Shown piece by piece: positions 450-60,913 of a stretch of 64,000 bases of DNA. The stretch is from Escarpia spicata (taxonomy: Eukaryota; Annelida; Polychaeta; Sabellida; Siboglinidae). The stretch is from contig OZ023205.1 of the NCBI GenBank assembly GCA_963995525.1, forward strand, positions 60,760,609 to 60,824,608, in the 5' to 3' direction. Both the position numbers and the translations under genes were made by a program. Positions within the stretch are counted from its first letter, which is position 1; each line of letters opens with the position of its first letter. The notes under the pieces were generated by a model that was not told the origin of the DNA, made no database searches, and worked only from the letters and a program-made list of their open reading frames with translations.

Positions 450-3400
450 TTACACAACATCGAAGTATGTCTCCGTGGTGATGATCACGGTCGGTATCAT
501 CTTGGCGACAGTCATATCAGCACGAGAAGCAGTGAGTGTCACCCTTTAATAATCTCCCTCAACAAAGCAGCTGGTCTCATAGAAGAAGTCAAACAGTTGA
601 AGCAGTGGCATAGTGATTAGAAAAGCAGACAGAGTGTCACCCTTAGAGCGGGGCTGTCTGTTCTGTTACACAGAATCATCATCTCATACCAAAGGTGATC
701 ATTATTAGCAGGAAGTTCACTGAATCAAGTCATGGTTGTGTGGGAACCAAGCGATTGTGCTGAACAGCAAACAGCAATTTCAGTTAGCCCCACAAGCCCC
801 CATAATACTGCCAATAAATGATGTTTATTATGTGACTGTTTTCTTTACGTTTTGACCACTTCACGAGTACAACATTACAACACTGTTTTGGACTTATTAA
901 GGGGAGGTATAGCAGCTAGATAGGACACTTTTTAAAATGCATAATTAATATAATTTTTTGGCATCCAAGCTGTAGAAAATCTATTACTGAGTAAAAAATG
1001 TGTGACATTTTTTTCTGCCAGACCCCCCGTTTCCATGGTAATAAACAAAATGGCCGCCAAATGGTGGTATTCATAGCACATCTAGAAAATTGCAACACTC
1101 TGGAAGTAAAAATGATATGGTAATCTAACTTAGCCTGTTGTATTCTCCTGGATATTCTTCACAATCCGTATAAAAAACATTTCAATTTTGTTTAATATTT
1201 ATATTTTATTTTGAATTTTCAAAACCGATTTATTGAAAATGCAACTTTTTTTGACTTTTTTTTAGATAACTACAAAGGTAAAACACAAATCCAAAATGTT
1301 TTTTATACAGATTGTGCAGAATACTCGGGAGAATACAACAATCAAAACCAGATTATCATATCATTTTTACTTCCAGAGTGTTGCAAGTTTATATGGCCAA
1401 AAACGTGATTTTCTGTAAACGGCCGTCAAAGTTTACACAGTGATAATATGAATAATATTATTGTAAACAAGTAAAACATTCAATAAATTGTGTTTGTTTA
1501 TCTCCCAGACATTAATTATGCACAATAAATAATATCTGAGATGAAATACACCCACAGAATTTATACAATTTTGCTTTTTTTTATAAATATAAAGGTCATT
1601 TGCATCATCATCTGATTTTCTGTAAACGTCCATCTGACACTGAAATGTCAAGATGTGAATAGTAATGGCTGTAAACAGCCAAAACAATTCAATTAAAGGT
1701 GTTTGTTTTCTCACAACATTAATTATGCATAACAAGCAATGTTTATGATGAAATATATCCACATGATAATAATAAAATTTTATTTATATGCCAACAAATG
1801 AAATATATCCATATGATAATAATACAATTTTATTTATATGCCAACAAATCTGGGGCAACAGCAAGTTACAGGTTTTACTGAAAAGAACAGACGCCCATAT
1901 ATAAGTTGCACAGTTCTGAAAATATAAGTTAACAAAGCAATAACTTAGTCTTATATACCAAACAGTTAACATGTCAAGCCCAAGGGCAAGGCCTGTTAAC
2001 AGGCCTGCTGTCATCACGCATCAGTACTAACTTTGTCCGGCTACAGGACGCACTATTTGGCAAAGCTGCAGTCTCTTTAACTATCGTACCGTCACTGGTG
2101 CCGATAGTAACATTAGCACAAGCCCCACACTCAGACATGGCAACGGGCAGCGAAGTCGAAGTGACAGCTCTGACTGGCATTGCCGCGTCTTCGCCAGCGT
2201 TTCTGACACACGACGAAATTAACTTGCGTTTTCCCCACGCAGAAGCCGCCAATAACTGCCGCCTTTTCTTCACAAATGACATTCAGCCACAACGTCCCTT
2301 TCCGCAACTTTTCTCTATGCTAACTAACTCTAAACTATCTCTTATCAACATCGTCAGAGACAAAACTCACATCGCTCGAGAAAACCGCCATATTTTATAA
2401 ACAATGGGAAGTAGCAACAAGTGGCATGCTGGGAGAGTTTTGCGCTCGCGCAACTTCGTAAACCAATCAGAGTGTTCATAGACACGAGGCGCGTCACGGA
2501 ACTTAGCGGATGACGACACGACGGTTACCGAATGCCAAATAAGGTCATTCTCGGCAAAATATAGCTTGCATAAATACCGATGTTGGCCGAATGCTTTCAT
2601 AAGGGCGGGATTACCGACTACGATAATTGACAGACGACATTTTGGCGGTTCCAAAAATATCAAACAAGATGGCGTAAGTCGAAGGAAGGACCGCGTTGTC
2701 ATGGCGTAAACATTGACAACTTTCAGCGCATTTCGCGTCTTCCCAATAAAAATGGATATATCATTGTGATAAGGGTGGACTTTATACATGAATAAAAGTC
2801 GTTTAGAGGTATGTTGTTGGTCTAAAAGTGAAGTTTATTTATAGTAAACATACAAATCTACTATCTGGCGCTGGAAAATTAAATTGACATATTTTTTCAA
2901 AAAAGCATAAATTAGCACCCGTACCAGGCCTTAATTGCAATTTGATGGGCAGTATACCTTCAACATGTTTATTAAGAGCATAATGTGAGGAAATGAGGAA
3001 CAAACCGCCTCAGTTGAAATAGTGTCCTCCGACACAAAGCAGCTGATGTCATAGAACAAGTTTTTATATTGATCACATAGCAACCCTTTGAAACACACAG
3101 TTTGATGACTATATGTGACGAGTCCGGACGAAATGAGTCGGATGTACAGATTTGTCGAACGTCAGGAAATGCCAAAATGTGTTGCAACCGCAACATTTAC
3201 GATTGTGCGTTTTTTCAATAAACTTGGTCCTTAATATGTCTGTTATCGACTGACGTCGCTATTTTTGTTAAATGTGCATTCATTTGCTGTTTATAGAGTA
3301 GTTTTGTGATACTTGTGTAAAATGTCATGCATGAATTCGCTAAAACAAAGCTGAAAACGCAACATTTGTAACGCAGTTTTTCGCGGAAATTGTGGGCTGT

Positions 3401-6400
3401 CCCTCAACATTTTGATACCGCCAGAGAGCGCTGGATGTCATCTTTCTAAATATAGTGAGGCCGCCGTGACCTGGTTTGAATTTAGCCAATAGGAGGGCTT
3501 GACGTGCGAGCTATAATGTAAACATTCGAAGCCTTGACTAATGCTACTGCTGTCATTGGCTGCGCAGCTGCGGCGCATGCGCATTGCGGCTTTCTTTGCC
3601 AGTCCCTTTAAAAATGGCACTCGAGTTAGCGAGGTTGATTAATTGCAATGTGGCGGATTCCGATAGAGAAAAGATCGATAGTTTGTTGGAGGAGTACAGT
3701 GTGGCAAAGGTGACGAACCAGACTCAGATTCAGAAGTTTGTAATAGCAGGTCATCCCACGAGGATGACCATTTTGATGACCGAAGGAATGACTTCGGTGG
3801 CTGCCGAGTCTGAGGACATAGTTTTTGACTCGGTGGACGAAGAACTGGCTAAAGTTTCAGGTATGCATGCTATCGAAGTGTATATTATATACACTATGAA
3901 ATTATTATTTGAATACCGTCTCACTGTCTGTGGTTCGTTATATTTATATGAACAGTGGCACAGGCCATTGTCATGATTGTATCTGGGTAAATGCATGTGC
4001 ACGTTATCAGGCCATCAGGGTGAGATCATGACAGATTACTAATTAATTAGATCGTTACTATAACCAAGCCTAATAGACTATGCTAATATGAGTTTCATTA
4101 AACTGGTGTTAGTCAGGGCTTGACATAAAGAGTAAATTAAAATTGTGACTTTCTGTGATATGGAGGAATGATGTCAGACATACTGATACACCACTGCACT
4201 GATAGTAGGATAGGTTTATTAATTCCTTATTATTATTATTAATGTAGCCTAAATTTCCATTTGTGTCTACAATAATGTTTTTGGCATAACTCTTAAAAAA
4301 ACAGATACTTTACGCATTTCAAAGGGACATAAAATGATATTGCATGTCATGGCAATGTTTTTTTAATGTGCATCATAACAAGGCACTGGACTATTATGAT
4401 TGGCCTTTTTATAAATGCATATGAAATTATATTTGCCGTTTGTGTACGTGCCTACCATAACTGGTCGCATTTTACAGGAACACCTGCGAGTTGTTGACAT
4501 GGCCAGGACATTCTACAACGGGATGGTGACAGCTGCCAAGCAGACCTGCAGCGAGATGAAACTGGTGGAGTTCAGCAGGAGTGCTCCCTGCAGCCGGCAG
4601 ATCTCGATGCACTACAGTTTCGACTTTGCGCAGCAAGTTCACCTGCCGAGTGACCCTCTCCAGCCAGGCTCCATGTACTTCCTGGTTCCTAGAAAGTGTG
4701 GCATATTTGGGGTCTGCTGGGAGGGGCTCCCGAAACAGGTGAACTTCCTGATTGATGAGGCCCATCTCATTTCTAAGGGGTCGAACGCTGTTGTGTCCTA
4801 CATACACTACTTTTTTGAGTGTTTTTGCAGCCAGCCCGGGCATGGTCTTTGTAAAGACAACATGCGGCAGCCCCGAAGAGGTTTGATGCAGCCAGCCCGG
4901 GCATGGTCTTTGTAAAGACAACATGCGGCAGCCCCGAAGAGCGCTTCGAGTTCCTGGTTTGCAGTGATGCCTTGCTGCCTTCTGCACCACCAGTCGCCAT
5001 CAAGCCACCCGGCCTCAGTCACGACCGCCAACACTACCTCCTCACAAACATTCGTCCATTTGTGAAGGACCTGTATAAGGACGTGCTGTGTCCAAGCCCC
5101 TCTGAGAGGGAGGATGCCCCCATGGCGGGGCCCTCCACAGCTCCCGATGCTGTCGCATCCACACCACGCAGAGGAGGTATTCGTGGCCTAGGTCGCCGTC
5201 CTCGCCAGCCATCGCCTTCTCCGACCGAGGCATCTGAGAACTCATGGTAGTGCTCGCAGGGGACGTGGTAGTCCTGGCAGGGGACATGGCAATGCTGGCA
5301 GGGGTCGTGGTGGTGCCAGTGTGGGAAAATGAGAATAAACTCACTGACTGGTTTTGTGAGTCATATAAACTTGCAGCAGTTTTCTTTTGCAATTTTATTT
5401 TGTTTTTGTTTGTAGCAATGAACTTCACTTATTAGAACAATGTCAGTTTATAAATAAATGCATTTACCCGACAAACCAGACTGTTTTTGTGTGTGCTGTA
5501 AAATTCCTAAAAAACATACCACTCCACTAGTATACATAGAAAAGTCTTTTGCTCATAACTTTTTTAATATCCCATACATTTTGTTCATATTTTCAGATAC
5601 TTAACAGGATATCACTATCTAAGATGGTGCTGAATTTCAAAGAAATCCGTTAAGAGTAACTAAGGTACTTTTCAGTAAACGTACCAAAACTTCAAACGGC
5701 TTTTTCTCAGTTTGAACATTTCAACCCCATATGTGTTCATTGTGACATAACTTCAGCTAGGATTATGCTACGCCCACAATATATGTACCATGTTAAAGCT
5801 GATTATATGCTCTTTCCAACGGTATATATAACTCAATATTTTTAAATTTGTACATGTGACTCATTTCGTTAGGACTCGACACATATTGTTTTATCTGGTA
5901 GTTGTAGGTACCCACTAAACACAGCAATTTTACTGTTAATATTTGGGGTCGGGATATTTTGTCTTTAGCAACATCTTTCAAAATATTGAATACTGATAAG
6001 AACTTTAGTACAGAAACAGCAGCAAGATTTCTTTAAGTTGGATGTATTTCTGCTGCTATCATCTTCTACAAAGGTTATAATTAGGATTGATTAATTAACG
6101 TATCTGATATTTTGTAATTATTTGAGAAAGGAGAAACTAGTTGCACAAAAATGTATCAATTTGTCCTCTGAAGCATGATGGCTGTGATACTATAGTGTAG
6201 CATACACTTGGTCCTAGACTTTGATCTAGTAAGTCACTAATATTGTTTTGTTTGCAGAATGGGTCAGATACAGAGTTTACTGACGAGGAGAAGTTATACA
6301 ATACGTTACGATTGCTCTTAGGTATGTACTTGTACATGTCAATTTAGTATAAATTCAAACGTGGATTGCATATGTATGTCACAGTAATTATTGCCTTGTG

Positions 6401-9400
6401 AACAAATATACCAGAGATCTAACGTTGTGATGAGAGGTAAGTATTCGTGGAGTTAACGTTACGTTGAGTAACATGGCTTAACTAATAGTAATAGCAGATT
6501 TATTAGCAAGGTGAACCGTCTAGCTTGTAGCCTGACAGACAACACACAAGTATGTTTTAAATATAATACTATTATATAATCAACATGATTTCAGCTATTA
6601 CAAGCAAGCATTCCTTCAGTATGCAGGTATAACGCTGCTACTGTTTGTGCTGTATACAGTTGTCATGGTTTCCCCTGTTACAAGTGCATGTTTCCTCTGT
6701 GTGCAGGTATAACGCTGCTACTGTTTGTGCTGTATACAGTTGTCATGGTTTCCCCTGTTACAAGTGCATGTTTCCTCTGTGTGCAGGTATAACGCTGCTA
6801 CTGTTTGTGCTGTATACAGTTGTCATGGTTTCCCCTGTTACAAGTGCATGTTTCCTCTGTGTGCAGGTATAACGCTGCTACTGTTTGTGCTGTATACAGT
6901 TGTCATGGTTTCCCCTGTTACAAGTGCATGTTTCCTCTGTGTGCAGGTATAACGCTGCTACTGTTTGTGCTGTATACAGTTGTCTTGATTTCCCCTGTTA
7001 CAAGTGCATGTTTCCTCTGTGTGCAGGTATAACGCTGCTACTGTTTGTGCTGTATACAGTTGTCATGGTTTCCCCTGTTACAAGTGCATGTTTCCTCTGT
7101 GTGCAGGTATAACGCTGCTACTGTTTGTGCTGTATACAGTTGTCATGGTTTCCCCTGTTACAAGTGCATGTTTCCTCTGTGTGCAGGTATAACGCTGCTA
7201 CTGTTTGTGCTGTATACAGTTGTCTTGATTTCCCCTGTTACAAGTGCATGTTTCCTCTGTGTGCAGGTATAACGCTGCTACTGTTTGTGCTGTATACAGT
7301 TGTCATGGTTTCCCCTGTTACAAGTGCATGTTTCCTCTGTGTGCAGGTATAACGCTGCTACTGTTTGTGCTGTATACAGTTGTCATGATTTCCCCTGTTA
7401 CAAGTGCATGTTTCCTCTGTGTGCAGGTATAACGCTGCTACTGTTTGTGCTGTATACAGTTGTCATGATTTCCCCTGTTACAAGTGCATGTTTCCTCTGT
7501 GTGCAGGTATAACGCTGCTACTGTTTGTGCTGTATACAGTTGTCATGATTTCCCCTGTTACAAGTGCATGTTTCCTCTGTGTGCAGGTATAACGCTGCTA
7601 CTCTTTGTGCTGTATGCAGTTGTCATGATTTCCCCTGTTACAAGTGCATGTTTCCTCTGTGTGCAGGTATAACGCTGCTACTGTTTGTGCTGTATACAAT
7701 TGTCATGATTTCCCCTATTACAAGTGCATGTTTCCTCTGTGTGCAGGTATAACGCTGCTACTGTTTGTGCTGTATACAGTTGTCATGGTTTCCCCTGTTA
7801 CAAGTGCATGTTTCCTCTGTGTGCAGGTATAACGCTGCTACTGTTTGTGCTGTATACAGTTGTCATGGTTTCCCCTGTTACAAGTGCATGTTTCCTCTGT
7901 GTGCAGGTATAACACTGCTACTGTTTGTGCTGTATACAGTTGTCATGGTTTCCCCTGTTACAAGTGCATGTTTCCTCTGTGTGCAGGTATAACGCTGCTA
8001 CTGTTTGTGCTGTATACAGTTGTCATGGTTTCCCCTGTTACAAGTGCATGTTTCCTCTGTGTGCAGGTATAACGCTGCTACTGTTTGTGCTGTATACAGT
8101 TGTCATGATTTCCCCTGTTACAAGTGCATGTTTCCTCTGTGTGCAGGTATAACGCTGCTACTGTTTGTGCTGTATACAGTTGTCATGATTTCCCCTGTTA
8201 CAAGTGCATGTTTCCTCTGTGTGCAGGTATAACGCTGCTACGGTTTGTGCTGTATACAGTTGTCATGGTTTCCCCTGTTACAAGTGCATGTTTCCTCTGT
8301 GTGCAGGTATAATGCTGCTACTGTTTGTGCAGTATACAGTTGTCATGGTTTCCCCTGTTACAAGTGCATGTTTCCTCTGTGTGCAGGTATAACGCTGCTA
8401 CTGTTTGTGCTGTATACAGTTGTCTTGATTTCCCCTGTTACAAGTGCATGTTTCCTCTGTGTGCAGGTATAACGCTGCTACTGTTTGTGCTGTATACAGT
8501 TGTCATGATTTCCCCTGTTACAAGTGCATGTTTCCTCTGTGTGCAGGTATAACGCTGCTACTGTTTGTGCTGTATACAGTTGTCATGGTTTCCCCTGTTA
8601 CAAGTGCATGTTTCCTCTGTGTGCAGGTATAACGCTGCTACTGTTTGTGCTGTATACAGTTGTCATGATTTCCCCTGTTACAAGTGCATGTTTCCTCTGT
8701 GTGCAGGTATAACGCTGCTACTGTTTGTGCTGTATACAGTTGTCATGATTTCCCCTGTTACAAGTGCATGTTTCCTCTGTGTGCAGGTATAACGCTGCTA
8801 CTGTTTGTGCTGTATACAGTTGTCATGGTTTCCCCTGTTACAAGTGCATGTTTCCTCTGTGTGCAGGTATAACGCTGCTACTGTTTGTGCTGTATACAGT
8901 TGTCATGATTTCCCCTGTTACAAGTGCATGTTTCCTCTGTGTGCAGGTATAACGCTGCTACTGTTTGTGCTGTATACAGTTGTCATGGTTTCCCCTGTTA
9001 AAAGTGCATGTTTCCTCTGTGTGCAGGTATAACGCTGCTACTGTTTGTGCTGTATACAGTTGTCATGATTTCCCCTGTTACAAGTGCATGTTTCCTCTAT
9101 GTGCAGGTATAACGCTGCTACTGTTTGTGCTGTATACAGTTGTCATGATGTTCCCTGTTACAAGTGCATGTTTCCTCTATGTGCAGGTATAACGCTGCTA
9201 CTGTTTGTGCTGTATACAGTTGTCATGGTTTCCCCTGTTAAAAGTGCATGTTTTCTCTATGTGCAGGTATAACGCTGCTACTGTTTGTGCTGTATACAGT
9301 TGTCATTATTTCGCCTATTACAAGTGCATGTTTCCTCTTTGTGCAGGTATAACGCTGCTACTGTTTGTGCTGTATAGAGTTGTCATGATTCCCCCTGTTA

Positions 9401-12400
9401 CAAGTGCATATTTCCTCTATGTGCAGGTATAACGCTGCTACTGTTTGCGCTGTACATGTCAGCCAGAATGGGCATCTACCAGGAGACAGTGTATGCACAG
9501 TTCGGCAAGCATCCTTCTGAGGCTCTCTTTTACAATGTAAGATTCTGACTCATTACTTCAGTTCATCCTTGAGAGCATTGCTGACAGCATCTCTGTCAGA
9601 CTTAGATTTGTTTTTTTAATTAACTGCCAGAAGTGTTTTGAGCAGTCATAAGGATTGGATACTGCGCTATATAAGAACTTATTGTTGATGTTTATGTTTT
9701 ATTATTTCTTGCCACTGGTTGGGTGGGCAATGATGTACATACTTCCTTGAGCTTGGAACCTGGAATCATGGGATGTGAACAATAAATGGGACAAAGAAAC
9801 AACTGATTGAGTGTATGTCTGTGTATTATCATGGGGTAATAGTAATATAAGATTGAAGTAATAGTAATAGGTTGAATAAAAACACAATATAATACTAAAT
9901 AATGTAATAGTAATTTACTTATTACTTTTATATTACTAATGGACATTTCAATTTGAGTAGCGCTTATTTTCCAGTCTAGTTATGTAATTATTTACAAAGA
10001 AAAGAATATTCCACTAGTTTCACCTCGTTTTATGATTGGTACCCTGTAAATTGTGGCCCTCAGTCAGTTACACCTGGGAGGTTATGAGAGTTTACATAGT
10101 GGGAGACACTGGGACAGTGTGACAACTGCATGGCTAAAGACATTGTAGGTCTTTGAAGTTGGTTCTTTTAGTGCTAAAAATAGTGCAGTCTATGGTTTCA
10201 GGAACATTTGACAATGTTAATGTAGCTTGAAACAACAATAGTATAAGAAACACACATAACATTGTGACCAAGTGTGTGTAATTACGTAGTCTCCTGCTGA
10301 CGTCCTTTCCTGTTTCTCTCAATGCAAAAAGAAAACTTGTTTCTTGGTGGAAATTGCAACCTTTTCAAAATGAACTATTTACACCTCTAATTTACCAAAA
10401 CATTAGCACATTAATTAGTTTTAGATTAAGTAACTGGAATGTGAGCAATAATAGAAAAACATGTCATGGGCACTTTTCAAAATATTAATTTTTATACATC
10501 TAATCTGCAAAAAAATGAGCACAGTAATTCGTTTTAGATTAATTAACAGGAATGTGAGCTATAGTAGAAACACTATAACGTGCTTGTCTTTGCCACAGAT
10601 ACTGGGCTGAATATATTTATTACTGATTTATTATTAGTTATCATCGATGACTTAACATTTTGTTTGATCCTTGCAGCATTTCCTTCCTCTTCCTGCATTC
10701 CTCTTCCTCTCCAAAGACATCTACAGTCACATGATCATCTACAGCCAATCAAGTGAGTGTCAACGGCATCTAACTTCATTTATAGAAGGCATAATTTATT
10801 GACACACTGCAGACTTAATGTAAAGCTACAAACTTATTTGATCTGTCTCCAGTCGAACCTCGCTCTACAGACAGTAAACAATGTATTTCTGTAGTAAAGT
10901 ACAGTGGAACCTCATTTTAAGGTAACCTCGGTAATACAGCCACCTCATAATTAAGGTCACCCTAGAACAGTCACACATTATTTCCATGTATAATAAAGTA
11001 TAGGATATTAGTCCTGCTAATATGGTCACCTCGCTATTCAGGTCACTTGTCCAGTCCAAAGTTGACCATAATAGTGAGGTTCCACTGTACATGACATGAG
11101 TTCAGTTAATTCAGTCACCTCACTAATTAGGTCATTTTGGCTCAGTCCCAAGAGTGACCTTAATGGTGAGGTTCCACATTGATGCATTTAATCTGCAGTT
11201 CTACTTAATGTTGATGTTTAATCAGGAGACAATTTGACTTAATTGCTACTTACAAACACACCTGTCGGCAAGTGCCTACATCATTTGAGCATCACATGTT
11301 CAGTTATTGTGGCAGTGACAATCTGTGACAGTCTGTGTGTGCTCTGTCATTGCAAGTGATTAACTAACCAATGTCTTCTGTTCACTTTCAGCACCAATTG
11401 TTCTGCCTCTCCTTGGCATTGCCGTGCCCAAACTGTGGCTCTTTCTCATTGGAAACACCCTCACGCAGTATCCTTTGTTTACTCAACAACTCCAAGACAT
11501 CAACTCTCGTGGTTCTTACACATATATAACAATAGTGTTATATTGATGTAAAAACCACATGAAAATGTAATATCTGTAATAATATGCAGCAAATACATTA
11601 TCGCTGATGTCTGATGATTGAAGTTGAACTATTAACTTGTTTGGAGATCGCCAATTTACACTACAGTCTGCTGTGCATGTGCGCACATGGAATTGTTGGA
11701 AAGCTTGCATTAAAACTGTTGGGGAGAGACACTGCAACTAAAATTAAATTTTTTGACAAAAATACTCAAAATGTGATTCTTCTGTAATCTGATAGCATTT
11801 TATGTTCACTATTAATAACGGTCTCTTTTATAACATTTACATACCTCTAAGTAACTTATGTTCATGGATAAAGTATGCTTCTGTCATGTGATAAATCCCA
11901 TTACTGAATCTTTGACAGCCGTTTAAACCCATTTGCTAAAACCTGTGTTTTTCCAATTTGGAAACATCTTTAGAAGTAATGATGCTACGTTAATGAAATT
12001 TTGACTGATGTGATCCTTGCTAATTTATCTATGCAATGACGAGGATACATTTTTTATTTTGTTTTTAGTTATGCTGAACATACTGATCGTAATAAAAATT
12101 ATGGTGTTTTACCAACAAAATTTAAACATATTAAAAAAATATTAAGTGATGACAATACATAAAATATATCTTCAACATTGGATTGAATGAGGTGTTATAA
12201 ATAAGAACTAGACAGAATTAAATTGTTTACTGCATTATTGGAGGAGCTACAATGTTTCCAAATTATGCTATATTTTCCCTCTCCGGCGGCCATCTTTGAT
12301 TGTTGCCACGGAAACGGGAGTTCTGGCAGAAAACAATTTCAATATATTTTGGTATAAGACATATTCTATATCTTGGGCACAAAACATTGCATTAATTGTG

Positions 12401-12925
12401 TATTTTAAAAAAATTTCCTAATCTAAACAGAAGAATCTATAGCAAATGTTGTTTGTTTGCTTTGTGATTGGACTGCCAATTGGTGTAAAATATTTATGAG
12501 TTGCCTATCCTCAATACTCACCACAACGTTATCACACAATATTCGCAACACTTGTGCATCCAGTGATGTGATGTGCTGCGAATATCACGCATTGTATTTA
12601 GAGACCATAGTTATTAGCCGAATGTGTCTACAGCAAAACTGGCAGCCTTCGTTGGTTCCTTGACATGGCCCACAGATACGTGTGTATCCGTGCCGTGTTC
12701 ATCCTGACGACCGAGTGCACGTCGCTGAGTGTGACGCTGGTCGTGACCCTGCGCAAGTTCCTCTCCCTTCTCTTCTCCATCATCTACTTCAGCAACCCCT
12801 TCACCCAGTACCATTGGCTCGGCACGGCCTTCGTCTTCAGTGGCACACTTCTCTTCACCGACGCCTTCACACTCCTCACCAAGGCTTTCAGGACACTGGT
12901 CTCAGACAAGAAGAAAACGGCGTAG
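450..12925 (+). CDS. SLC35B4: SLC35B4-like UDP-xylose/UDP-GlcNAc transporter, 3' part (six exons)
   Basis: This is the C-terminal 218 residues of a multi-pass nucleotide-sugar transporter; the 5' exons lie left of the window. Exons are 450-531, 6258-6321, 9427-9536, 10677-10752, 11392-11467 and 12676-12925. All have AG/GT borders and phases that join without a shift, and the last ends in TAG. Landmarks matching the vertebrate SLC35B4 family are YTTSKYVSVVMITVG, ALYMSARMGIYQETVY, FGKHPSEALFYN, TQYVCIRAVFILTTEC and TLVVTLRKFLSLLFS. The family carries UDP-xylose and UDP-GlcNAc into the Golgi/ER lumen in exchange for nucleotide. The chain ends in KKTA, which fits a KKXX dilysine retrieval signal (inference). 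Exon 9427-9536 is preceded by a 2.8-kb tandem array that repeats its own splice acceptor. The gene is convergent with TATDN2. Confidence 0.93.
880..1075 (-). repeat. Dispersed repeat, copy 1 (inverted relative to 12240-12440)
   Basis: Read on the minus strand, the stretch around GGCGGCCAT, CATGGAAACGGG, TCTGGCAGAAA and a following AT-rich run matches 12240-12440 on the plus strand (GGCGGCCATC, CACGGAAACGGG, TTCTGGCAGAAA). The similarity is moderate and runs for more than 100 bp. Both copies lie in introns of SLC35B4 in opposite orientation. They are likely two copies of one transposon end; the family was not identified. Confidence 0.5.
1089..1387. repeat. Foldback element with about 90-bp inverted arms
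   Basis: The left arm (about 1089-1180, beginning GCAACACTCTGGAAGTAAAA) is repeated in reverse complement at about 1293-1387. The arms differ by a few substitutions and small indels, and an AT-rich spacer of about 110 bp separates them. No coding sequence is visible, so a MITE-like or foldback element is the simplest reading. Confidence 0.7.
1405..1849. repeat. Imperfect ~205-bp tandem duplication followed by a ~50-bp tandem duplication
   Basis: GATTTTCTGTAAACG begins two similar blocks at about 1408 and 1613; each contains ACATTAATTATGCA and a GATGAAATA run. The second block ends in two direct copies of about 50 bp (1750-1799 and 1800-1849) starting GAAATATATCCA. The sequence is AT-rich and noncoding. 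Confidence 0.6.
1974..2282 (-). other. Short unrecognised ORF with GC-rich context
   Basis: An open frame of 102 codons starts at 2282 on the minus strand in a locally GC-richer island. A TATA-like TATAAAATATGG lies about 110 bp upstream, near 2390-2400. The peptide has a basic start (MSFVKKRRQLL). I recognise no domain. It could be the first exon of a mobile-element gene or a chance ORF inside the SLC35B4 intron. Confidence 0.15.
3108..3157 (+). repeat. ~45-bp inverted-repeat arm left of the DUF7869 pseudogene
   Basis: The segment containing CGAGTCCGGACGAAATGAGT recurs as a diverged reverse complement at 5844-5888. The two arms bracket the pseudogene at 3614-5319, so they may be (sub)terminal inverted repeats of the element that carried it. 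Confidence 0.45.
3614..5319 (+). pseudogene. Degraded DUF7869-type (transposon-associated) gene
   Basis: Two separated coding stretches resemble the DUF7869 proteins abundant in cnidarian, fish and invertebrate genomes, which are probably mobile-element derived. The first runs from ATG 3614 to about 3860. The second opens after an AG at 4477 and contains HYSFDFAQQVH, PRKCGIFGV and QVNFLIDEA, the usual start of the domain. It then jumps straight to the C-terminal block (PPGLSHDRQHYL, IRPFVKDLY), so roughly the middle of the domain is missing. A 61-bp tandem duplication at 4829-4942 sits at the break. The C-terminal Arg-Gly-rich tail (about 5249-5330) is in another frame after a TAG. Joining the first two stretches in frame needs a weak donor at 3854; the stronger GTATGC donor at 3861 shifts the frame. 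It is non-functional as read and lies wholly in an SLC35B4 intron, same strand. Confidence 0.6.
4829..4950 (+). repeat. 61-bp tandem duplication carrying a splice-acceptor-like CAG
   Basis: CAGCCAGCCCGGGCATGG occurs at about 4828 and again 61 bp later. Each copy holds a CAG followed by about 50 bp of coding sequence ending GAAGAG, and the copies are joined by GTTTGATG. The unit spans an acceptor and the start of the following coding block, as in the larger arrays in this window. Confidence 0.8.
5320..6257. other. Intronic stretch with no gene
   Basis: This is AT-rich SLC35B4 intron. AATAAA motifs at about 5333 and 5453 follow the DUF7869 remnant and may be its old polyadenylation signals. 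The right inverted-repeat arm (5844-5888) is here. Nothing else was recognised before the exon at 6258. Confidence 0.5.
5844..5888 (-). repeat. ~45-bp inverted-repeat arm right of the DUF7869 pseudogene
   Basis: Its reverse complement matches 3108-3157 (shared cores CGAGTCC and ACGAAATGAGTC, then ATGTACA) with several differences. Confidence 0.45.
6596..9426 (+). repeat. 80-bp minisatellite, 35 copies, reiterating the SLC35B4 3' splice site
   Basis: Thirty-five head-to-tail units of exactly 80 bp run from 6627 to 9426, with a diverged partial unit before them (6596-6626). Each unit ends in TTTCCTCTGTGTGCAG (a pyrimidine-containing acceptor) and begins with GTATAACGCTGCTACTGTTT, which is the start of the genuine exon at 9427. 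About 28 nt of each unit are exon-derived and about 52 nt intronic. No unit has an indel. Internal units differ at one or two sites (TCATGG, TCATGA or TCTTGA). The five units next to the exon are the most diverged. Short ORFs of 62-75 codons across the array are by-products of the period. Confidence 0.97.
9625..9700 (+). repeat. Dispersed repeat tail with a CGCTATATAAGAAC motif
   Basis: The stretch with GAGCAGTCATAAGGATTGGA followed by TACTGCGCTATATAAGAACT matches the reverse complement of 21950-22020. This GCGCTATATAA tail is seen at the 3' end of many animal L2-like LINEs and SINEs; the family assignment is inference. Confidence 0.45.
10902..11087. mobile_element. Small TIR element (MITE), Tc1/mariner-pogo (Tigger-like)
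   Basis: CAGTGGAACCTC at 10902 is mirrored by GAGGTTCCACTG ending at 11087, and both ends are flanked by TA, the target of the Tc1/mariner superfamily. The 186-bp body has repeated AAGGTCAC-type motifs and no ORF. A second, truncated right end lies at about 11105-11178 (GTGAGGTTCCACA). Confidence 0.75.
12240..12440 (+). repeat. Dispersed repeat, copy 2
   Basis: Partner of the minus-strand copy at 880-1075; see there for the shared motifs. It lies in the last SLC35B4 intron. Confidence 0.5.
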
Positions 12926-19236: not shown

Positions 19237-22200
19237 TCAAATGCCGTACATGTCACGTGTGTTCTCATAGCAGGCCTTGAGCACGACGTCAATGTGGATG
19301 CCCTTGAGTCGGGCCACTTCGTCTGCTACAGTTATCACCATGCCTGGGTGGCAGAACTCCATGTCTGTCTTTGGGATCTACAACAGACATGGTATAAGTG
19401 CTTGTGTTTCTACCTCATTAATGCACTCAGGCTGTCAAATACGGCAACTCTACTGGCTCACTCAGGCTGTCAGATACGGCAATTCTACTGGCTCACTCAG
19501 GCTGTCAGATACGGCAACTCTACTGGCTCACTCAGGCTGCAACACTATGTAGTGTATGTAGTTGAGACAGGATTCAGTGGTTCGCGGAAGCGGAACTGGA
19601 CCAAGTAGATGAGTACAAGTGTTAGTTATTTCAAAACCCAAAGTTCAAGTGCTGAAATTCTGAATGAAATACAGTAGTCCCTCTCTTCAGCGGACACTCT
19701 GACGAGGGGACACCCACTATGTCGGGACACTTTGTCAATGTACAGACCATTTTGCCATGTTAATGTCCCTCTGATATGGGGACACCTCGTGTACGCGGAC
19801 AGGATATTTTGGTTATATGTCCCTCCTAAGACGAACAGTATTAATTAATTCAAAGATTTTTTTGCCAAATTTGTTTTAAAATGGTGGACATACAGCTCGG
19901 TGTGTGTCAATGGTAACGCCGAGTACACATGTACCCGTAACAACGAGCTTGTCTTCCTTGCTGTAATCATTGTGTTTGTCCAAACTACTCAGAGTTCCTT
20001 TGATTACGCTTTGTAAATTTTAGACAGAGTGAATGTGGAGGAAGGTATTGTTAATTTTGTGCTGTTATCAGTCACATTTGCCACCAGTGATGACATGAAT
20101 GATGGCTTCCCCGTTCATGCCTCCAGCCTCAGTCAGCGCTTCAGCTTGGCTTCGCCTTTTCATCTTGTAAATTGCAATTAAGATTCAAAAATATGATGTA
20201 TAAAAGGTTCATCTCAATTTTTTTCAATGTAGTCCAACATTAAGCCTAAACTGAGGTGAAATAATAAACAAGCATCATCAAATTATGCTGTGCTACGCCA
20301 AATATTACCAGTGCCTGGAAAAGATGAAATGGTTGCCAGTGTATGAAACGGTGGAATCCATTATCAAGTGATGCACAATTTGTGCATTGATGAATCTTTC
20401 GAAATTGGATGAAAAATTAAGTGAGATAATTAATGACTGTACCCGTTACCATTTTTAATATTTAATTAACGTTCACGCTACATGTAGCAACCGATTTAAA
20501 TATTAGGTTGATCATTTCCAGGTTATTATTTTAGCCGGTAGGGGGCAGCCAAAATCGTCAACTTGCGAATTACTTATAAAGTATTTTAGTTGTTAGTTAG
20601 TTGTTGTAACGGAGATGTTTCGTTCGACATTTTTGGTTGAATGCTACCATACGCGCAGCTAATTTTACTGCAACGCTGGGTCGATACCGTTGTGTAGGCT
20701 AGTGGCAGGAGTGAGTTACCAGTGTGCGGTTGAGGAAAATCTCAGATCGACAGGGAGTCGGGCGGACGGTGCCAGGTGGGCAATATGACTTCATGACTAA
20801 CTGTTTATTTGTTAATACATAATAGTAATAATAAACATGTATATATATATATAGTGCTTAATTCCTATCAGTCAATGCGTTGACATATTGCCACAATTTA
20901 TCATGTGTCGGTTGTACTGGTCTTGGACTCTGGCTCTAAGATGCCTGTCCCTCCGATGAGCGGACACCTGCCATGTCAGGACACTTACGCTTTGATACAT
21001 TATGTGTCCGCAGAAGAGAGGGACTACTGTAGTGTAAGTAACCTTGTTGATCCCATGATGTCTAAAAGAGAAATACACTCAGATTCCCCACAACACACAT
21101 ACAATTTCAGCAAAATATGTTTATAAATAACTCTAACATTCATAGTAAAGACAAATGCCCCTAGTGTACAGAAAAGAAAATAAGGTTAAAAAAGACATAT
21201 CACACAATTAGCAGAGTTAAGGCACCACATGAGCTGGTAAAATTCAGCTTATCCAACGGGCATCTAAGGATAGTTGGGGAAAATAACAGACTTGGTAGTT
21301 GGGGTATAATCCCTCCCCAACCCTTATGAGAAAGAAATAAACAACGCTTCAGAAAATGCGGGAAAGAAAGAACCAAGTACCGACCCTCCATGGCACAAAG
21401 TAGGGTGTGTGAAATCCAAGTATCTACCCTCCAGGGCACAAAGTAGGGTGTGTGAGATCCAAGTATCTACCCTCCAGGGCACAAAGTAGGGCGTGTGAGA
21501 TAGAACCAAGTACCTACCCTCCAGGGCACAAAGTAGGGCGTGTGAGATTCAAGTATCTACCCTCTAGGGCACAAAGTAGAGCGTGTGAGATAGAACCAAG
21601 TATCTACCCTCCAGGACACAAAGTAGGGCGTGCAAGATAGAACCAAGTACCTACCCTCCAGGGCATGAAGTAGGGTTTGTGAGAAAGAACCAAGTACCTA
21701 CCCTCCAGGGCACAAAGTAGGGCGTATCGGTCTCAATGAGGAGCTTGTCAAGGGGGATGTAGCGGGCAACGTCCTTGAGAGGGAAGGCGCGTCGACTGCG
21801 GTGGGTGAGCAGGGCAGTGAGACCGATGTAGGAGTTGGGGAATTTGTGCAGCCAGGTGCGAGCCTCCTCCCACGTGCCCGTGAAGCAGTGCCGGTGGATC
21901 TTGTGGTTACGTGGGATGTGCTAGAAACACAAACACAAAATGTAAAAAAAATTTAAGGTAAGTTCTGATATAGCGCAGTATCCAGTCCTCAGGACTGCTT
22001 AAAGCACTTTACACTTTACTCCCTGGCAGACCTGTTCAATCGAACACAAACTCAACATCTGTGGGAAGCATCCAGCCACAATGCAATTAAAGGCGTTGGA
22101 CATTTTAAAAAGGAAAATTGCATATTTACATTTTTTTGATAGATTATGGTGATATAAACTATTTGCGAAAAAATATATATATATTCCCGCAAATTAGTTG

Positions 22201-25200
22201 CAGAAATTAAGGTTTTAGTTTTCCGTCTGCGCTCTCTTGAAGGCACTGTCTGATAACTAGGTCATGACGTCAAGTAGCGGATTGCCTCAACGCGTCATTT
22301 GTTATTTACATTATAAACAGTGACAGCGGTTTTCGCATTCATCGTCTGTTTTTTTTACAATATATGTTAACATTTTACATAGTTTTTTCACTTCATCTTG
22401 TTCTACATGGATATATTTTAATATCAACATGGTAAAGACGTGTGTTGTGCAGGGTTGTATGGGTACAAAGACAAAATTTAATGTCACCCTGCAAAGATTC
22501 CCTGTTGAGTCGACGCGATGTAGTAAATGGCATCGGTTCGTCCGAGCGACTTGATCCCATTGGAAACCGACGCGGCATTCACATATATGTAGTCAGCATT
22601 TCATTCCAAGTGATTTTTATTAATAATCTGGAATATGAAATGGGATTTGCGCGCTATCCCCTCCTTAGCAAGACGGCAATTCCCACCGTTCGGCATCGTG
22701 TACAAGCGCCCAATGGCACAGCCACAGTGGCACAGGTAATACTCATTATACAGTCGGAGCCTCTGCCTCTGTGACTCGCCCACTGCTTCACAAACGTGAA
22801 ATAAAAAGGGTAAATAAGTAGTTTATAATATTAACTAAATAGTTAAGCACTTCAGCAGCATATGTTACGACAACCAGAAACTAGTATTCATTTAAGTGGA
22901 ATAGCATTCAATACAGGAAACACTCGCTATAAAAGAAACACTCGTTAATTTTCAAAGCCGTCTTTGAAATCGTGTCGCTTCCCGGAAATCATTGTCGTAG
23001 TATTATGTGCTCTTGACTAAACAAGAAACATCATATATAAGGAACAGGATTAGGTCCCAACATGTTGCTTAATTATAGCGAGTGTGCACTGCATGTAATG
23101 GATGTTTTAGAAGTCTAGTTTAACTACGAACGCAGTGCCAGTGGTAAGAGTTTGTAACATTACTTATGTGTTCTAACACTAAATTCAGTACCCTTTTGCC
23201 AGGGTAGTGTCAATTGTTGTCTTCTGTTTTACTGTATCGGTGAAAGTTTCTTTTGAACTAATATGTTAAATTGCCAATAAACCTGGTTGGCATGTCTTCA
23301 TTCAGTGTAAAGGTTTTATATGAGAAAAGCGACCCAATATTGCATTGCCACGGAATTACGCGACGCACCAAATTTGCCCACTAGCAATGCAGTATTTAGT
23401 AAAATACAAGCATACCGGATTTTTGCGCATTAACACAAAGTGTGATAAAGATAATTTCTACAAATGTTTTTGTGGTGTACATCAATTGCTCCACTACATA
23501 CATATCAAATTATGATCAAATTATACTAAATTTTATGTTTTGCACCAATGTTAAAAACATGTCACTAGAATGAGTTGCTAATGTCATGATCTAGTGTACA
23601 GACTATACAAAGAAATCCTGTAGACAAGTTACATATAAAAATATATATTTTATGAAAGGTTGCAGTGTTAGTCCTCATCTTCAGAGTATGTGACAAGCCT
23701 GACGACAGAGCTCACTAAAGTGATGCTTGGTCCAAGTAATGCTTGGCAAGCGTGGGAGGAGATCAATTTTGTGTGCAGTCTTTTAAAAAAACGTCAGTAA
23801 CATCAGGCTATATTTAAACAATACATTATAAATTGCTTATTTCCAACAACAAAATACCTCACTGTTCGAGGCCTTTAATTCGCGAAGACTATTCGTACAC
23901 AAATGTCCACCACTGTCTACAGCCAGGTACTCATTCATACAGCTGAGTAAACTGGAGCAACGTATAGTGAATGAACTTGCCCAAGGTTCGACACCGCCGC
24001 ACAGGATTTGAACCCGGGTTCTCTCGGTTGAGAGTCCGGATCTCTAGCCACTGCACCACGGCGCTGCACAACACTTGTTTGTCGTATCAAGCTGGGTGCA
24101 AGACTTGCAACCTACATATTAATGCGCTAACTTTGGAGCATTGTAAGTGCATCTCCACCAGGCACTCAGCTTAATCGCCTCTTTCTATGTTCAGTCATTT
24201 CCTTCAAACATTCAACTCTCATCTACCTACTGGTGTTGCGTCTAAGGAAACAGAACATCAGTTAATAACCTACAGTTATTTACTCATGAGATTTTTATAT
24301 GCACTGCTTTTCTTGAGGGCCTTTCTCCTACCTGAGAGAACCAGATGGTGAACCACTCTCCTCCAGAGGGCACTACTTAAACAAATGTTTAGTTGCTCTA
24401 TGGATGGGTGTACGCTGGTTTGTTTATTTCAACTAAAAATTTTAATCTGTGTATGTACTGTTTGAATTACAGGGAACCTCGTTAATCTTGATTAAACCGT
24501 TGACTGGAAAGATTTAAAATAAGCAAGAAAGTTTGACACAACCTGTCATACCAAACTATAACAAATAAAAAAATATATACTTTGCCAGAATGAATGTTTT
24601 TCTCAGGAAAAGCCTTCAGTGTGTGTGCACTCATGCGTGCGTGCTGGTCTCACCTTCTCTAGTTCGCTGATGATGTCTGACTCTGACTCGCGTGAGTGGA
24701 TCACAATGGGTTTGTTGATTTCTGTGGCGAGCTTCAACTGGCGTGCTAACACTTCCTTCTGGGCCTCGTGGTGCTGGTAGAAACTACAACACTGCTCAGT
24801 GAACTACAGGTACGTGTAAACTGCTTAGCAAACTACACCGTTTGTCATTGGGCTAGAAGTTATATGTTTAAACTCAACATTACTTGTTATACTGGTTGTA
24901 TTTAAATATGCATTTGGTTTCTTTCTCACTAATTACTAACCAATGCTCACAGCTAACCGATACTGAAATATCACATATTTAAAAGAAATTTCGAGGGTAC
25001 TGACAAATGGGTAATAATCGAGGGTTTTTAATCACCGTTCAGCATTAATTTTAAACTCTCGTCATTTGCTATGGTTCAGATGAATGATCAATGTACTTAC
25101 GTTCCTGAGTAGTCCAGTCCTATTTCTCCGACAGCGACCATCTTATCATGCTTCAACATGACCCTCATCGCTCTCTCGGCCCGCGCCGTGAAGTTGGTCG

Positions 25201-28200
25201 CACATTTCGGGTGACACCCGACGGCTCCCCAAACATTGTCCTCACGCAGTACATCAGTCCACATGCCAGCTAACACACAAAAACATAGTGACATCACACA
25301 ACACGTCAGTCCACACACCAGCTAACACACAATAACAACACAGTGACATAACATAGCAAACATAACACGCCAGCTGACACACAACAGAAACACAGTGACA
25401 TAACATAACACGTCAGTCCACACACCAGTTAAAACACAACAATACAGTGACATCACACAACACGTCAGCTGACACAACAGAAACACAGTGACACAACATA
25501 ACACGTCAGTCCACACGCCAGCTAACACACAACAACACAGTGACATAACATAACACGTCAATCCACACACCAGCTAACACACAACAACACAGTGACACAA
25601 CATAACACGTCAGCCCACACGTCAGCTGACACACAACAGACACACAGTGACATAACAGAATACGTCAGTCCACACACCAGTTAAAACACAACACAGTGAC
25701 ACAACATAACACGTCAGTCCACACGCCAGCTAATACACAACACCACAGTGACATAACATAACACGTCAGTCCACACACCAGCTAACACACAACAACAACA
25801 CAGTGACATAACATAACAAACATAACACGTCAGTCCACACGCCAGCTGCCACACAACAGAAACACAGTGACATAACAGAACACGTCAGTCCACACACCAG
25901 CTAAACACAACAACACAGTGACATCACACAACATGTCAGTCCACACGCCAGCTAACACACAAAAACAACACAGTGATACAACATAACACGTCAGTCCACA
26001 CGCCAGTTAACACACAATAACAACACAGTGACATAACATAACACGTCAGTCCACACACCAGCTAACACACAACAACAACACAGTGACATCACATAACACG
26101 TCAGTCCACATGCCAGCTGACACACAATGAAGAATGCTGTGACCTCACACATGCCAGCTAACAGTAATACCAAATGAAGAACACGCTGACCTAAGAGGAA
26201 CACACATGATGAACAAGTTTTGGACATATTGTATTTATATGGATGTATAAACATAGTTTCACAAGTATGTAGCTGTCAAACCATTCTTGGTAATTTTGTA
26301 TATTATACATTACAACATGTAGTAATATGTAGTAACAAAAATAATCATGTACTTGTTTATTTCAGACTACATAAAAAAACTCACCCTCAGTTGTGAATGT
26401 GTGTGGATGACAGAAAACGGTCACGCAGCCAGCAAAGTTGTCACAGAATGTGTCCTCATTAACAGCCACATACTTCTTGAACGTCCCCTTGAAACTAATG
26501 CGATCGAACAGAAAGTCCAAGTGGCAGTGCGAATCCAGAAACTGCTCTGAACTCTTCTTGAATATCTCCTTCAACTTGGTACGCCAGTCGAAGCTCTGCC
26601 ATGAGCTGCTGTGGTCACTGCGCGTGTCAGCATATGTTGACACTGGCTGCTGTATCTTTGACATGAGGGACTGAGCCCTGGAGGCAGCAGCGGACTCCTG
26701 AAGCAGGCGTTGCATACGAGGCGGCAGGTTCCACCTATTGCGGGCATGGTTCGTGTTGTTTGCTTGCAGATCGGTGCTGTAACTCCCGCCGTACAAACTG
26801 TTGCCGAGATACGCTTTGTTGGTGGTGTCTCGCTTGTCCGGAAACATCTCGTACCTGTTGTGTGACTTCTCCGTCAACTGGCGGCATTCTCCATCAAACC
26901 AGTCAATCTCGCCCTCTTCTTTCTTGCCGCTTTGATCTGGGTCGGTGACGTCCAATTTGCCCGGTGATGCGACATCGTCGAACGACATAGACAGTTCACT
27001 CCATGTCTCCTGAGAGTTGTTGCTGGAGACAGAGCAACACGAGAACCGACTGATACGTTGTGAAGTACACGGACTCGATTCAACCGAGCTTCCCAGGCCA
27101 CACAGGTTCAAATCACTGTCGACGGAGCTTGATACAGACGTACACGACACGCCACCACGATTGCTATTCTGAGCCCCACCCATCAAAACGGTGCCGGTGT
27201 TCTTAGAAGGCCCCGTCGGAGGGGCGACACTGCTCATATCGCCACTTACTAACAACCGTCTCACTTGGGCACATTGTGCAGACTTGCGCCGAGGCGTCTG
27301 AAACGTGAACTCACTGGCACCATCTGGTGTGCGTGCACAAGCTTTGGCATGTGTCACCGGAGTACTGGTACTTTGCCAAGGCCCATAAGGACTGCATCGC
27401 GGACTTGGGGGCACCTTGCCTGAAGGTGTAGATTCCTGTCCGTTGTCGTATGCCCCACTCACATGGGAGCTGTCTATATTTCCAGAGAAGCCGAGATTCG
27501 GCAGTGTCACATTTGCGTCTTTGGGGCATCCGGGCATGCGGTGCACCGACTCTGCGGAGGTGACCGTACTGAAACTACTCGACAAGCGCATTGTTGGCGG
27601 CACGTAATGCGCAACCCGGAATTTCACCTTCCCTCGTGACTCTGCTGCACCCTGTAGGCAGTTTTCAGTTGTCGTTGCCATGGATATTGCCATATCTGCA
27701 CAGTGGTGCATCAACGAATCATCCATGAGCGAGTCGTCGGCTTTGTACGGTGACACGACCACCTGATCATCATTCTGGCTTGCGGGCGATTTTACACGTG
27801 GCTCCTGATCTGCTACGTCTTTCCGACTACCGTCATTCACCCATGTACAATTGCTGAAAACTGCGTTGGCAAACTCATGTGATGTAGCTGGCGGCACTGA
27901 ATTTGATGGGGCATTGCTCGCAAGCCCTGAAGCAACTCCTTTGTCGACAGCCGAAGAATTATAGTTTCTCGAAGGAATATTCAACAGATTTTCATTGCAA
28001 TGTGACGATTGTTTGGTTGCCTCAACATTGTTCTGTGCCTCACCACCACTTGTACTAGACGACGATGGGGGTGTGTCATATCGCACAGACGGCGCCCCGT
28101 AGTGGAACACTTGACAAGGGGGTCGTGTGACATAAGACGCAGTGGTGGGCTGGGTCGTAGGCCATGAGGAGCAATAACCACCTGCGGGTTTCCCCTCTGA

Positions 28201-31200
28201 CAGGTTTGTGATCAGGGGGCAGTTTGGCGGGGGTGTGGAGGGTGGGGGTGGAGGGGGAACAAGGCAATTTGCCAGCAACTGAAGATCCCCCGAGAGTGGG
28301 CTGGTCATGGGAGACCGCTCTGGGGCAGTTGATGCCTGCATCGCACTGCTTACGAGTGGAGTGTCGTCACCCTGGAACCGGACAGGTGCGTACCAGCCCT
28401 CGGAAGGGCTGGCATGGCGGTACCAGTCTTGGCTTGGGTGATACCCAGTTGGTTTTGGCCACAAGTGTCCAGAGTTGTCGAAGAACATCAGGTCCGGTGG
28501 TGGTGCTGGAGACCCAGAACCACTGCCCTGTAGGTACCACTGTGGGGGTGGGCCATACCTCGGCCTCGGGCTGCAGGTGGGCAGGAAGGGTGCACACCCC
28601 GGGTAACTTGGCTGCTGGAGCGTGTCTGATGGTGACTGGGTCAAGTTCCCTGCAACACATTTACGGAGCATTTAATGGACAGACAAATAATTAAGTATCG
28701 GTTTACATCAGTTGGGTTTGATTCTAATCAAGTCATTTACCTGTAAATGTAATCACAATAAGCATTTTCGAAGGTACTGTATCAAGACACAAGACTCACT
28801 CATCAAAACTCCTTTTTTGCGATCACAGTCATTACAAGACATCAATCTCAGGGCAGTGACTGACGTGGTGTGTGGATCTGGGTTCATGAGATTTAAAACC
28901 CCTTTCAGACAAATACTTTGACAATTTTAGAGCATTTCTGTGATAAATTCAATGCTACAAATTAACAACAAAGACATTTTGTTCAAACATCGTCTAGGAG
29001 CCATTAATTTTCTTTATTTAGCAATGAAATTGCATCATTTCATTTTGATAAAAGAAGCAGATCACTCTCAGACATTCGGTGATATGCAATTGTTTCCATC
29101 CTTGTCAAAATGTAGTTTTGGTGAAACTAAACTTGTGATCTTCATAGATATTTGGTCAAAAATCCCTATTTCAAGACCACAAAAATTTAATATTCAGTCT
29201 TTGCACACACACACCCTCAGGTCAAAACACAATAATTCGGTAGTATCTAGCATTGACGATTTACCTGAACTCAAAACTTTAAAAAATTATGATGAACTTG
29301 AGAGATTTTACTGGTGAAACTAAATTGATAAGACTTCCAACAAAGGCAGTTCCAACTCCAAGCAGAGTGGCTAGGAAAGGGCAATGAATTAAACTTTCTA
29401 TTTTAAAAACAACAATGATCTTAGCTACGACACTGTCCAATAAACAAATATGCATTACATTTCATTTGCATCAGTCGTATTTTGCTGTGCACAAATGTCA
29501 CTGATACTGACACACACAAAAATGTTTAACCAATTTGATCTTTACCAAGGTGTCATCAAGTTTCATGCAAAAAATGGCCCATGATAAGATCTTAAGAATG
29601 AGAAAGCAGAGAAACAGCCCTAACTTAAACCAGTATTTAAATTATGTGCTGAACAAAGCGAACATGTACAAGTAAAAATAATTTATAAACCTACCTGTGC
29701 GGGAGTCCTGGTTGCCCGACTTGTGCCGTTTGAACCCGTTGACCCTTGCGGTATCCTCCAGATGACCGGTCTCTTCTGGCGGTGACAGGGACATCACAGG
29801 GAGGTAGTCGTAGGAGGATCGCCGATGAGACCAGAATGGAGGAAATGGACAGCTCATTGCGGATGCACCTCTCATGCAAGGTCTCATCAGACGAGTGTGG
29901 TATGAGTGGCCAGCCGCTAACAAATAGAAAGAGGAACCTGTGTCAACTATCTGAGTGTAACTGTCACTGGCTGTGAGGTCATGAGGCGTCATGGTGGCTT
30001 CAGCATGACCCTGACTGACCGTGACAATGTCATCGTTCATAGGTGGTTCCACGGAATGATGTCGGTCATCAACAGTGATAGTGTCACTGCGTCTGTCTGG
30101 GACGTAGATGTCGGTGACAATAACTACGGGGTGCACCAACATGTCTGTATTGTGACTAGATGTGACGTTAGAGTCATTGTGACAATATCTGGGTGAAGTG
30201 TCACGAGATTGAGACGTGGCTGCTGTTTCACTGTCAACGTCACAAACAGTCATGTGACTCCGTTCACCAGTATCCTCATCTCGGCATAACACAGAACTCT
30301 CACCAGACACCAGTGGTCTTTCTATTGTCACAGGCGATGTCACATGTGACACACCATAGTGGTCCATGTTCCAATCATCCTCATCTTCTGACACAATTGG
30401 CCATCCTGTCATTCTCTGGTGTCCTTCCAACACATGTCTTGACACACACAGTGCAACATTAACACCAGATAAGTTCTTTATTTGCACCTTTTCGTTGTGG
30501 TCAACAATGCTTCTCTTAGGACCCATAATCTTGGCATTTCCACCGCACTCTGAGGTCTGTGTCCTTTGCATACCGCCACATTTCTCATTTGGGTCAACAA
30601 CTCTTTGTTTGCTACCCAGATTTGCAACAACTGTCCCATGCTCCAAGTTGGACTGTCTTCCTCGAGCATAACCAGACTTCTTTTTAGGGTCAAAAACCTC
30701 TTCTCTGACACTCAATTTCTCTACATGTGTTCCATGCTCTGAGTTTGTTTGTCTCCTTTGTCCAGCACCAGTTTTCATTTTAGGATCAACAAGTCTTTCT
30801 CTGCTATCTATAATTTCACAACTTCTATCATGATCTGGTTTGACTTGTCTCCTTTGTCTACCACCAATTTTTTCTTTAGGGTCCACAACCCTTTCTCTGC
30901 CATCCAGACTTTCAGGAATTGTTCCATGATGTCCTGAGTTGATTTGTTTCCTCTGTCCACTACCAATTGTTTCTTTATGGTCAACATTCCTTTCTCTGCT
31001 ACCCAAATTCTCAGCAATTATTTCATGTTCTGAGTTGGTCCGTCGTCTTTGTCTGCCACCAGGTTTCTCTTTGGTGTCAACAATCCTTTCTCTGTTGCAC
31101 AGTTTCGCAGCATGTGTTCCGTGCTCTGAGTTGGTTACTCTCCTTCGTCCACCTCCAGTTTTCTCTTCTTTAGCATCAACAATCCTTTCTCTGCTACCGA

Positions 31201-41416: not shown

Positions 41417-52952
<11,536 letters not shown>

Positions 52953-54857: not shown

Positions 54858-60624
<5,767 letters not shown>

Positions 60625-60913
60625 GTATATCGATCTCGTCTTTTTATTTACATTAAACCGAGACTCGCTGCTCCTCATTTTATTAATACTAGAATGAGTA
60701 GTCAGTATGGTGCACTGCCGGTCAACTTGTTTTTGAAACGTTCAAATTGTAAAGAAAACATTCATATTGTAAACGCCCTTTATTAGAGATATTGTGGAGG
60801 CCAGTGGGGCTAATCGCAAGTTCCCGATGATGCTCGGCGTGTTCACTTTTGTTCCCACACATTCAAGACATGATTTAGCAAACTTCCTGCTAATGATTAC
60901 CACCGTTGCATGC

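Follow-up and report, generated by a model that had tools for sequence, protein, structure and literature searches.

The SLC35B4-type gene and its repeated splice site

The window considered here is the whole of a 64,000-nucleotide stretch of DNA from the annelid Escarpia spicata (contig OZ023205.1 of assembly GCA_963995525.1, positions 60,760,609 to 60,824,608 of the forward strand), and it holds part of a gene of the SLC35B4 type. In one intron of this gene a tandem array repeats the junction of intron and exon 35 times before the true exon is reached. A second gene, of the TATDN2 type and on the minus strand, has arrays at two of its own splice junctions. The exons of the first gene and the parts of its array are as follows, with a slash in a motif marking the splice border.

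450..531, plus strand: first SLC35B4-type exon in the window, the start of the gene lying farther upstream
6258..6321, plus strand: SLC35B4-type exon upstream of the array, 64 nt, donor TTAG/GTATGT, phase 1
6572..6626, plus strand: half unit of intron sequence, diverged, at the array's 5′ edge and before the first site; local alignment score 43
6622..9454, plus strand: 80-bp minisatellite array; Tandem Repeats Finder gives 35.4 copies, 97% matches, 0% indels, score 5351
6627..9426, plus strand: 35 decoy acceptors GCAG/GTATAA, one per 80 bp, the first exon-like base of each at 6627, 6707 ... 9347
9427..9536, plus strand: true exon after the array, 110 nt, donor AAT/GTAAGA; Pfam UAA transporter family, E 1.9e-10
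10677..10752, plus strand: SLC35B4-type exon
11392..11467, plus strand: SLC35B4-type exon, followed by a U12-like intron
12676..12925, plus strand: last SLC35B4-type exon; Pfam UAA transporter family, E 6.8e-24

Spliced together, the six exons give a single open frame that encodes 218 residues before a stop, with the start of the gene outside the window, and the best protein matches of this model are UDP-xylose and UDP-N-acetylglucosamine transporters (SLC35B4), which bears out the gene and the exon at 9427 proposed in an earlier sequence-only reading of the window. Among the best 120 of 1282 matches the closest, aligned over 78% of the query, are proteins of Lamellibrachia satsuma (89%) and Ridgeia piscesae (88%), and the other 118 stand at 56-61%, including Lineus at 57%, Capitella at 59% and Branchiostoma at 60%. 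Over residues 52-200 the two tubeworms match at 142 of 149 and 141 of 151 positions, as against 101-108 of 146-149 in the three other proteins compared. One Ridgeia piscesae protein without the exon that precedes the array (P0002) was not used; by eye its model appears to misframe the exon before, which is likely an annotation error.

The last intron of the gene, 11468-12675, looks to be of the U12 type: it starts with GTATCCTTTG and has TTCCTTGAC with 11 nt to the intron end, motifs that we take to be those of such introns. Each pattern occurs once on the plus strand of the window, and on the minus strand they occur three and 0 times respectively. Within the intron 531-6258 a gene-like stretch holds a perfect 61-bp duplication (4826-4941, 1.9 copies) with TGCAG opening each copy, which may be a border array at a young, two-copy stage; neither of the two open frames in that stretch has a Pfam match.

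Anatomy of the 80-bp array

The window has 36 copies of the string GCAGGTATAA, identical at every site, the first at 6627 and the last at 9427, and all 35 spacings are exactly 80 bp. Of the 80 nt of each unit, 52 are intron and the other 28 match the start of the true exon with one difference, so that the border lies inside the unit, just as the sequence-only reading had described it. Together the 35 units make up 2800 of the 3105 nt of intron 6322-9426, or about 90%. That reading had also spoken of 35 exact copies of the exon's own 3′ splice site; the number stands, since 35 decoys precede the true site at 9427, but exactness does not extend to the unit, as only nine of the 35 are identical to the consensus and the remainder carry 1-4 differences. 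Pairwise identity of the acceptor-centred units 2-36 has a mean of 97.4% and a minimum of 90%.

Divergence is found at both edges. Units 31-35, which adjoin the true exon, have 1, 3, 4, 4 and 4 differences, and elsewhere the maximum is 3 (unit 22). The five diverged units noted earlier beside the exon are therefore real, yet they are not alone in differing, since units 13, 14, 17, 21, 22 and 30 have 2-3 differences. At the 5′ edge, the local alignment score of the half unit compares with a maximum of 30 in 1000 shuffles. The RNA fold of three array units was not more stable than that of shuffled sequence (z -0.42; 60 of 200 shuffles fold equally well). Pattern searches for the DNA of relatives were made in collections where animal genomes are not expected and from which records of the window's own genome may have been left out: a 21-base pattern of the unit had 0 matches in viral contigs, and a peptide pattern matched 15 stretches in prokaryote genome contigs, with 0 confirmed.

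Reading frame, strength and constraint of the decoy acceptors

The frame that starts at any of the 35 decoys ends after 28 codons, at the TAA of the following unit, and only from the 36th site is the frame open. Where cassettes of one, two or three units are spliced to the true exon, the same stop is met in 35, 34 and 33 combinations. The earlier expectation of an in-frame stop after any decoy is thereby confirmed, and the companion claim, that protein comes from the last site only, agrees with a frame that is open only with the last acceptor, the evidence being that of the sequence.

Splice-site scores, here and below, come from weight matrices, and by these the decoys look strong on paper. 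Against 5.39 for the true acceptor, 30 decoys stand at 5.53, two at 5.39 and the first at 3.09, while the two nearest the true exon reach 6.10 and 7.68, so that 34 of the 35 score at least as high as the true acceptor. Counting those of the array itself, 1.0% of the 7044 AGs on both strands reach 5.53. The earlier idea that diverged neighbours give the true site an advantage finds no footing in these values, the true acceptor being no stronger than the decoys and weaker than the nearest two. The donor of the true exon, at 9537, scores 3.32. At all 36 sites AG is followed directly by GT, and each unit, beginning with GT and ending with AG, is formally an 80-nt intron.

An alanine encoded by the true exon is alanine in 109 of 109 proteins that match the surrounding motif, whereas all 35 decoys read valine, and so the last copy alone looks to be under coding constraint. 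This comparison drew on 241 proteins, 120 of them from the SLC35B4 search; 109 fit the surrounding motif and the rest of the 120 did not.

Two further junction arrays in a TATDN2-type gene

On the minus strand, exons at 28671-26385, 25269-25101, 24783-24654, 21920-21702 and 19377-19237 form one open frame of 981 residues, in which the first exon is provisionally taken from 28671. The features at its two arrays are these.

21365..21725, minus strand: second junction array, in which a 5′ splice site (GAGG/GTAGGTA or GTAGATA, once GTCGGTA) is present in 8 copies 47 or 43 bp apart
21702..21920, minus strand: TATDN2-type exon ending at the second array; TatD_DNase, E 3.4e-15, on 21651-21920
25101..25269, minus strand: TATDN2-type exon starting at the third array
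25254..26127, minus strand: third junction array, made of the 3′ splice site TTAG/CTGG.GTGTGGACTGACGTG, with a unit of about 52 bp and 16.5 copies according to the repeat finder; the true exon start is taken as 25269

In the second array the first copy, at 21701, keeps the frame and is taken as the true donor; with 3.58 it is tied for the best score with two decoys. In the third, a fixed pattern picks out 18 sites, counting the true one, and 15 of these keep AG (copies with other changes lie outside that list), and the true acceptor scores 2.62 against -2.67 to 3.08 in the 14 decoys that keep it. Decoys of both arrays lead to early stops, for seven of seven donors and for 13 of 13 tested acceptors, the acceptor test having left out three rows without AG and a weak row at 26157. 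The units of both arrays are more diverged than those of the SLC35B4 array.

The full model had three protein matches with 8000 candidates scored. Its C-terminal 329 residues matched proteins like TATDN2 and TatD proteins of bacteria, and the best 120 of 7842 matches include no named tubeworm. Two proteins from contigs of 320 kb and 236 kb (P0121 and P0122) match the model at 71% over 58%, corresponding to 26362-28671 of the window, and relatives of this locus may lie on those contigs.

Placement of arrays at splice junctions

The association of arrays with junctions was put to a placement test that was picked after the arrays had been seen, with the 19 junctions of the window's two modelled genes and with 15 of its 42 repeat rows. 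The rows taken were one per place with a period of at least 20, and those dropped were of shorter period or overlapping, together with a TG-rich row at 43185-43251 (period 28). Three of the 15 arrays have their exon-side end within one unit of a junction, as against a random mean of 0.19, and at least three did so in 0.09% of 50,000 trials. With placement limited to 450-28671, where 10 of the arrays lie, the random mean is 0.29 and at least three are found in 0.24% of trials.

Probable origin and tolerance of the array

At a probability of about 0.72, we regard the SLC35B4 array as a minisatellite that was born on the border and is carried as tolerated sequence, splicing choosing the last acceptor. 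The 36 identical splice cores at exact 80-bp spacing, and the open SLC35B4 frame that the last-acceptor model gives, support this, as do the alanine kept by the last copy only, the placement of array ends at junctions and the like anatomy of lancelet genes. Its anatomy suggests birth by tandem duplication of the intron-exon border, after which the copies would have spread into the intron and been homogenised there. Exon 6258-6321 would then be spliced to the last acceptor by exon definition, this being the sole acceptor 110 nt from a good donor, and the decoys would be at a disadvantage, each with 28 nt of exon and then, 80 nt on, a weak donor-like GTATAA. An array at a border can grow and leave the protein intact, since splicing removes all that precedes the last copy; extension within an exon, by contrast, would in many cases disrupt the frame. 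The arrays of the TATDN2-type gene may have come from the same repeat habit. Arrays of this kind are known from lancelets as “mirages”, minisatellites that straddle exon borders at either exon end, and the ends of mirage clusters are reported to escape homogenisation (PMC3087553). The diverged 5′ half unit and the diverged 3′ units fit the edge effect described for BflGb6 (PMC3087553).

Several points weigh against a tolerated minisatellite. We infer the use of the last acceptor from the DNA, and as the decoys are by the matrix scores as strong as the true acceptor and nearer to the donor, one would expect them to be used to some extent. Mirage copies could act as cryptic sites, according to PMC3087553. 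When any overlap of array and junction is counted, the placement result is not significant (6.1%, or 17.6% within 450-28671), significance being confined to the stricter criterion of array ends.

If decoys were used, the stop after 28 codons could bring about nonsense-mediated decay and lower SLC35B4 output, with copy number as the means of tuning. This would suit the stop that is the same from every decoy (35 of 35) and from cassettes of one to three units, as well as acceptor scores so high that only 1.0% of window AGs reach the commonest of them. Such stops are, however, not peculiar to this array, given that the TATDN2-type decoys, donors and tested acceptors alike, lead to them too; no sign of selection was seen on the decoys, and in lancelets undisturbed splicing is suggested by PMC3087553 and PMC3902484. 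Regulation by decay is for these reasons unlikely. The more general proposal of the sequence-only reading, that choice between productive and unproductive acceptors regulates the SLC35B4-type gene, is possible but not supported, with two like arrays present in an unrelated gene and splicing apparently undisturbed in the lancelet cases. Recursive splicing would have the AG/GT decoys serve as zero-length exons, the intron being removed in multiples of 80 nt and the choice of a decoy being corrected by a later step. The AG/GT at every one of the 36 sites and the formal 80-nt intron are what it calls for, and the donor CAG/GTATAA scores 0.23, a value reached by 7.3% of 8834 GTs on both strands. 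Yet the four U2-type donors of the gene all score higher (1.92-5.17), the donor that is rebuilt behind the exon ending at 6321 has a score of -1.4, and the 3′ splice site array of the TATDN2-type gene has AG/CT, so that recursion cannot be the general reason why such arrays are tolerated. We consider it very unlikely in the SLC35B4-type gene, and there is still less to commend its extension, in which the array is a ladder of 35 AG/GT sites whose recursive 80-nt removal corrects a wrong acceptor, and junctions are hot spots of minisatellite birth in vestimentiferan tubeworms.

Copy number in long tandem arrays is often wrong in assemblies, and an error of assembly might have created this array or inflated it. 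A mirage aberrantly assembled in a genome draft is described in PMC3087553. Against such an error are the scattered single differences among the units, the greater divergence of those at the 3′ end and the presence, twice more in the window, of like arrays with units still more diverged, and it is very improbable.

Other features of the window

Two stretches within 57740-60786 match Glycosyl hydrolase-like 10 (GHL10), with E 1.1e-22 and 3.1e-08. On the minus strand, 47368-51363 is an open frame of 1331 residues that by eye looks like a Ty3/gypsy-type polyprotein; frames flanking it resemble, again by eye, pieces of cytochrome P450, and the two of these that were scanned, 45519-45881 and 44805-45059, gave no Pfam match. 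A 96-bp array at 30591-31577 (10.2 copies, 69% matches) lies within a minus-strand open frame of 964 residues, to which it would contribute 32-residue repeats if coding, and this frame too is without a Pfam match. There is a reverse transcriptase fragment at 36236-36769 (RVT_1, E 6.8e-13) and, at 62180-62725, a weak match to DUF4371 (E 0.00045), whose 20.6 bits are under the curated cut-off of 32.1.

Comparison with known systems

Among the papers listed in the literature searched, with annelids or tubeworms named in part of the search and most subscription journals outside it, exon-border arrays in annelids were not found, only the lancelet papers; the repeat and intron passages of the Ridgeia genome paper (PMC9921365) have nothing on such arrays. 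The lancelet mirages of Adh3, BflGb6 and BflGb9, to which PMC3902484 adds PGBD5 and troponin C (TnC), resemble the present array in being tandem copies that span a border and repeat AG/GT signals many times. At 6622-9454, 21365-21725 and 25254-26127 alike the border is inside the unit, and in the SLC35B4 array, judged by the frame and the conserved alanine, only the end copy appears to join the coding exon. The differences are in part of degree. There are 35 decoys here as against six and three units in the two BflGb6 haplotypes (PMC3087553), and the unit of 80 bp compares with 150-160 bp in BflGb6, 157 bp in BflGb9 and 10-72 bp in Adh3. For the lancelet mirages, Adh3 data and globin reverse transcription PCR suggest that splicing is left undisturbed (PMC3087553), whereas the SLC35B4 array is seen in the DNA of one assembly. 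What is new with respect to lancelets is the host animal, an annelid whose protein is nearest to those of vestimentiferans (89% and 88%, with Branchiostoma at 60%), and the density, three arrays in a 64-kb window. The protein matches rule against a lancelet as the source of the window and point to a vestimentiferan-like annelid (Siboglinidae). An annelid thus joins the lancelets as a host of splice-junction minisatellites, which may be more widespread than the published cases suggest.

Recursive splice sites are zero-length exons, and the sites of the SLC35B4 array are like them in that the acceptor is followed immediately by GT at all 36. They are unlike them in the weakness of the donor part, the rebuilt donor scoring -1.4 as against at least 1.92 in the gene's U2-type donors, and in forming a regularly repeated minisatellite, where recursive sites are single and in long introns. 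With 35 near-identical acceptors in front of one true exon, the array is a natural experiment in spliceosomal choice between equal sites, in which copy number is one of the variables.

A model of intron gain, cited in PMC3087553, invokes the duplication in tandem of a stretch that holds AG/GT proto-splice sites, and a case in potato is reported (PMC4974935). The SLC35B4 array shares with such duplications copies bordered by AG/GT that are potential donors and acceptors at once; it differs in sitting within an existing intron, where no new intron is required, and it might be a natural experiment too on the seeding of new introns by tandem AG/GT copies.

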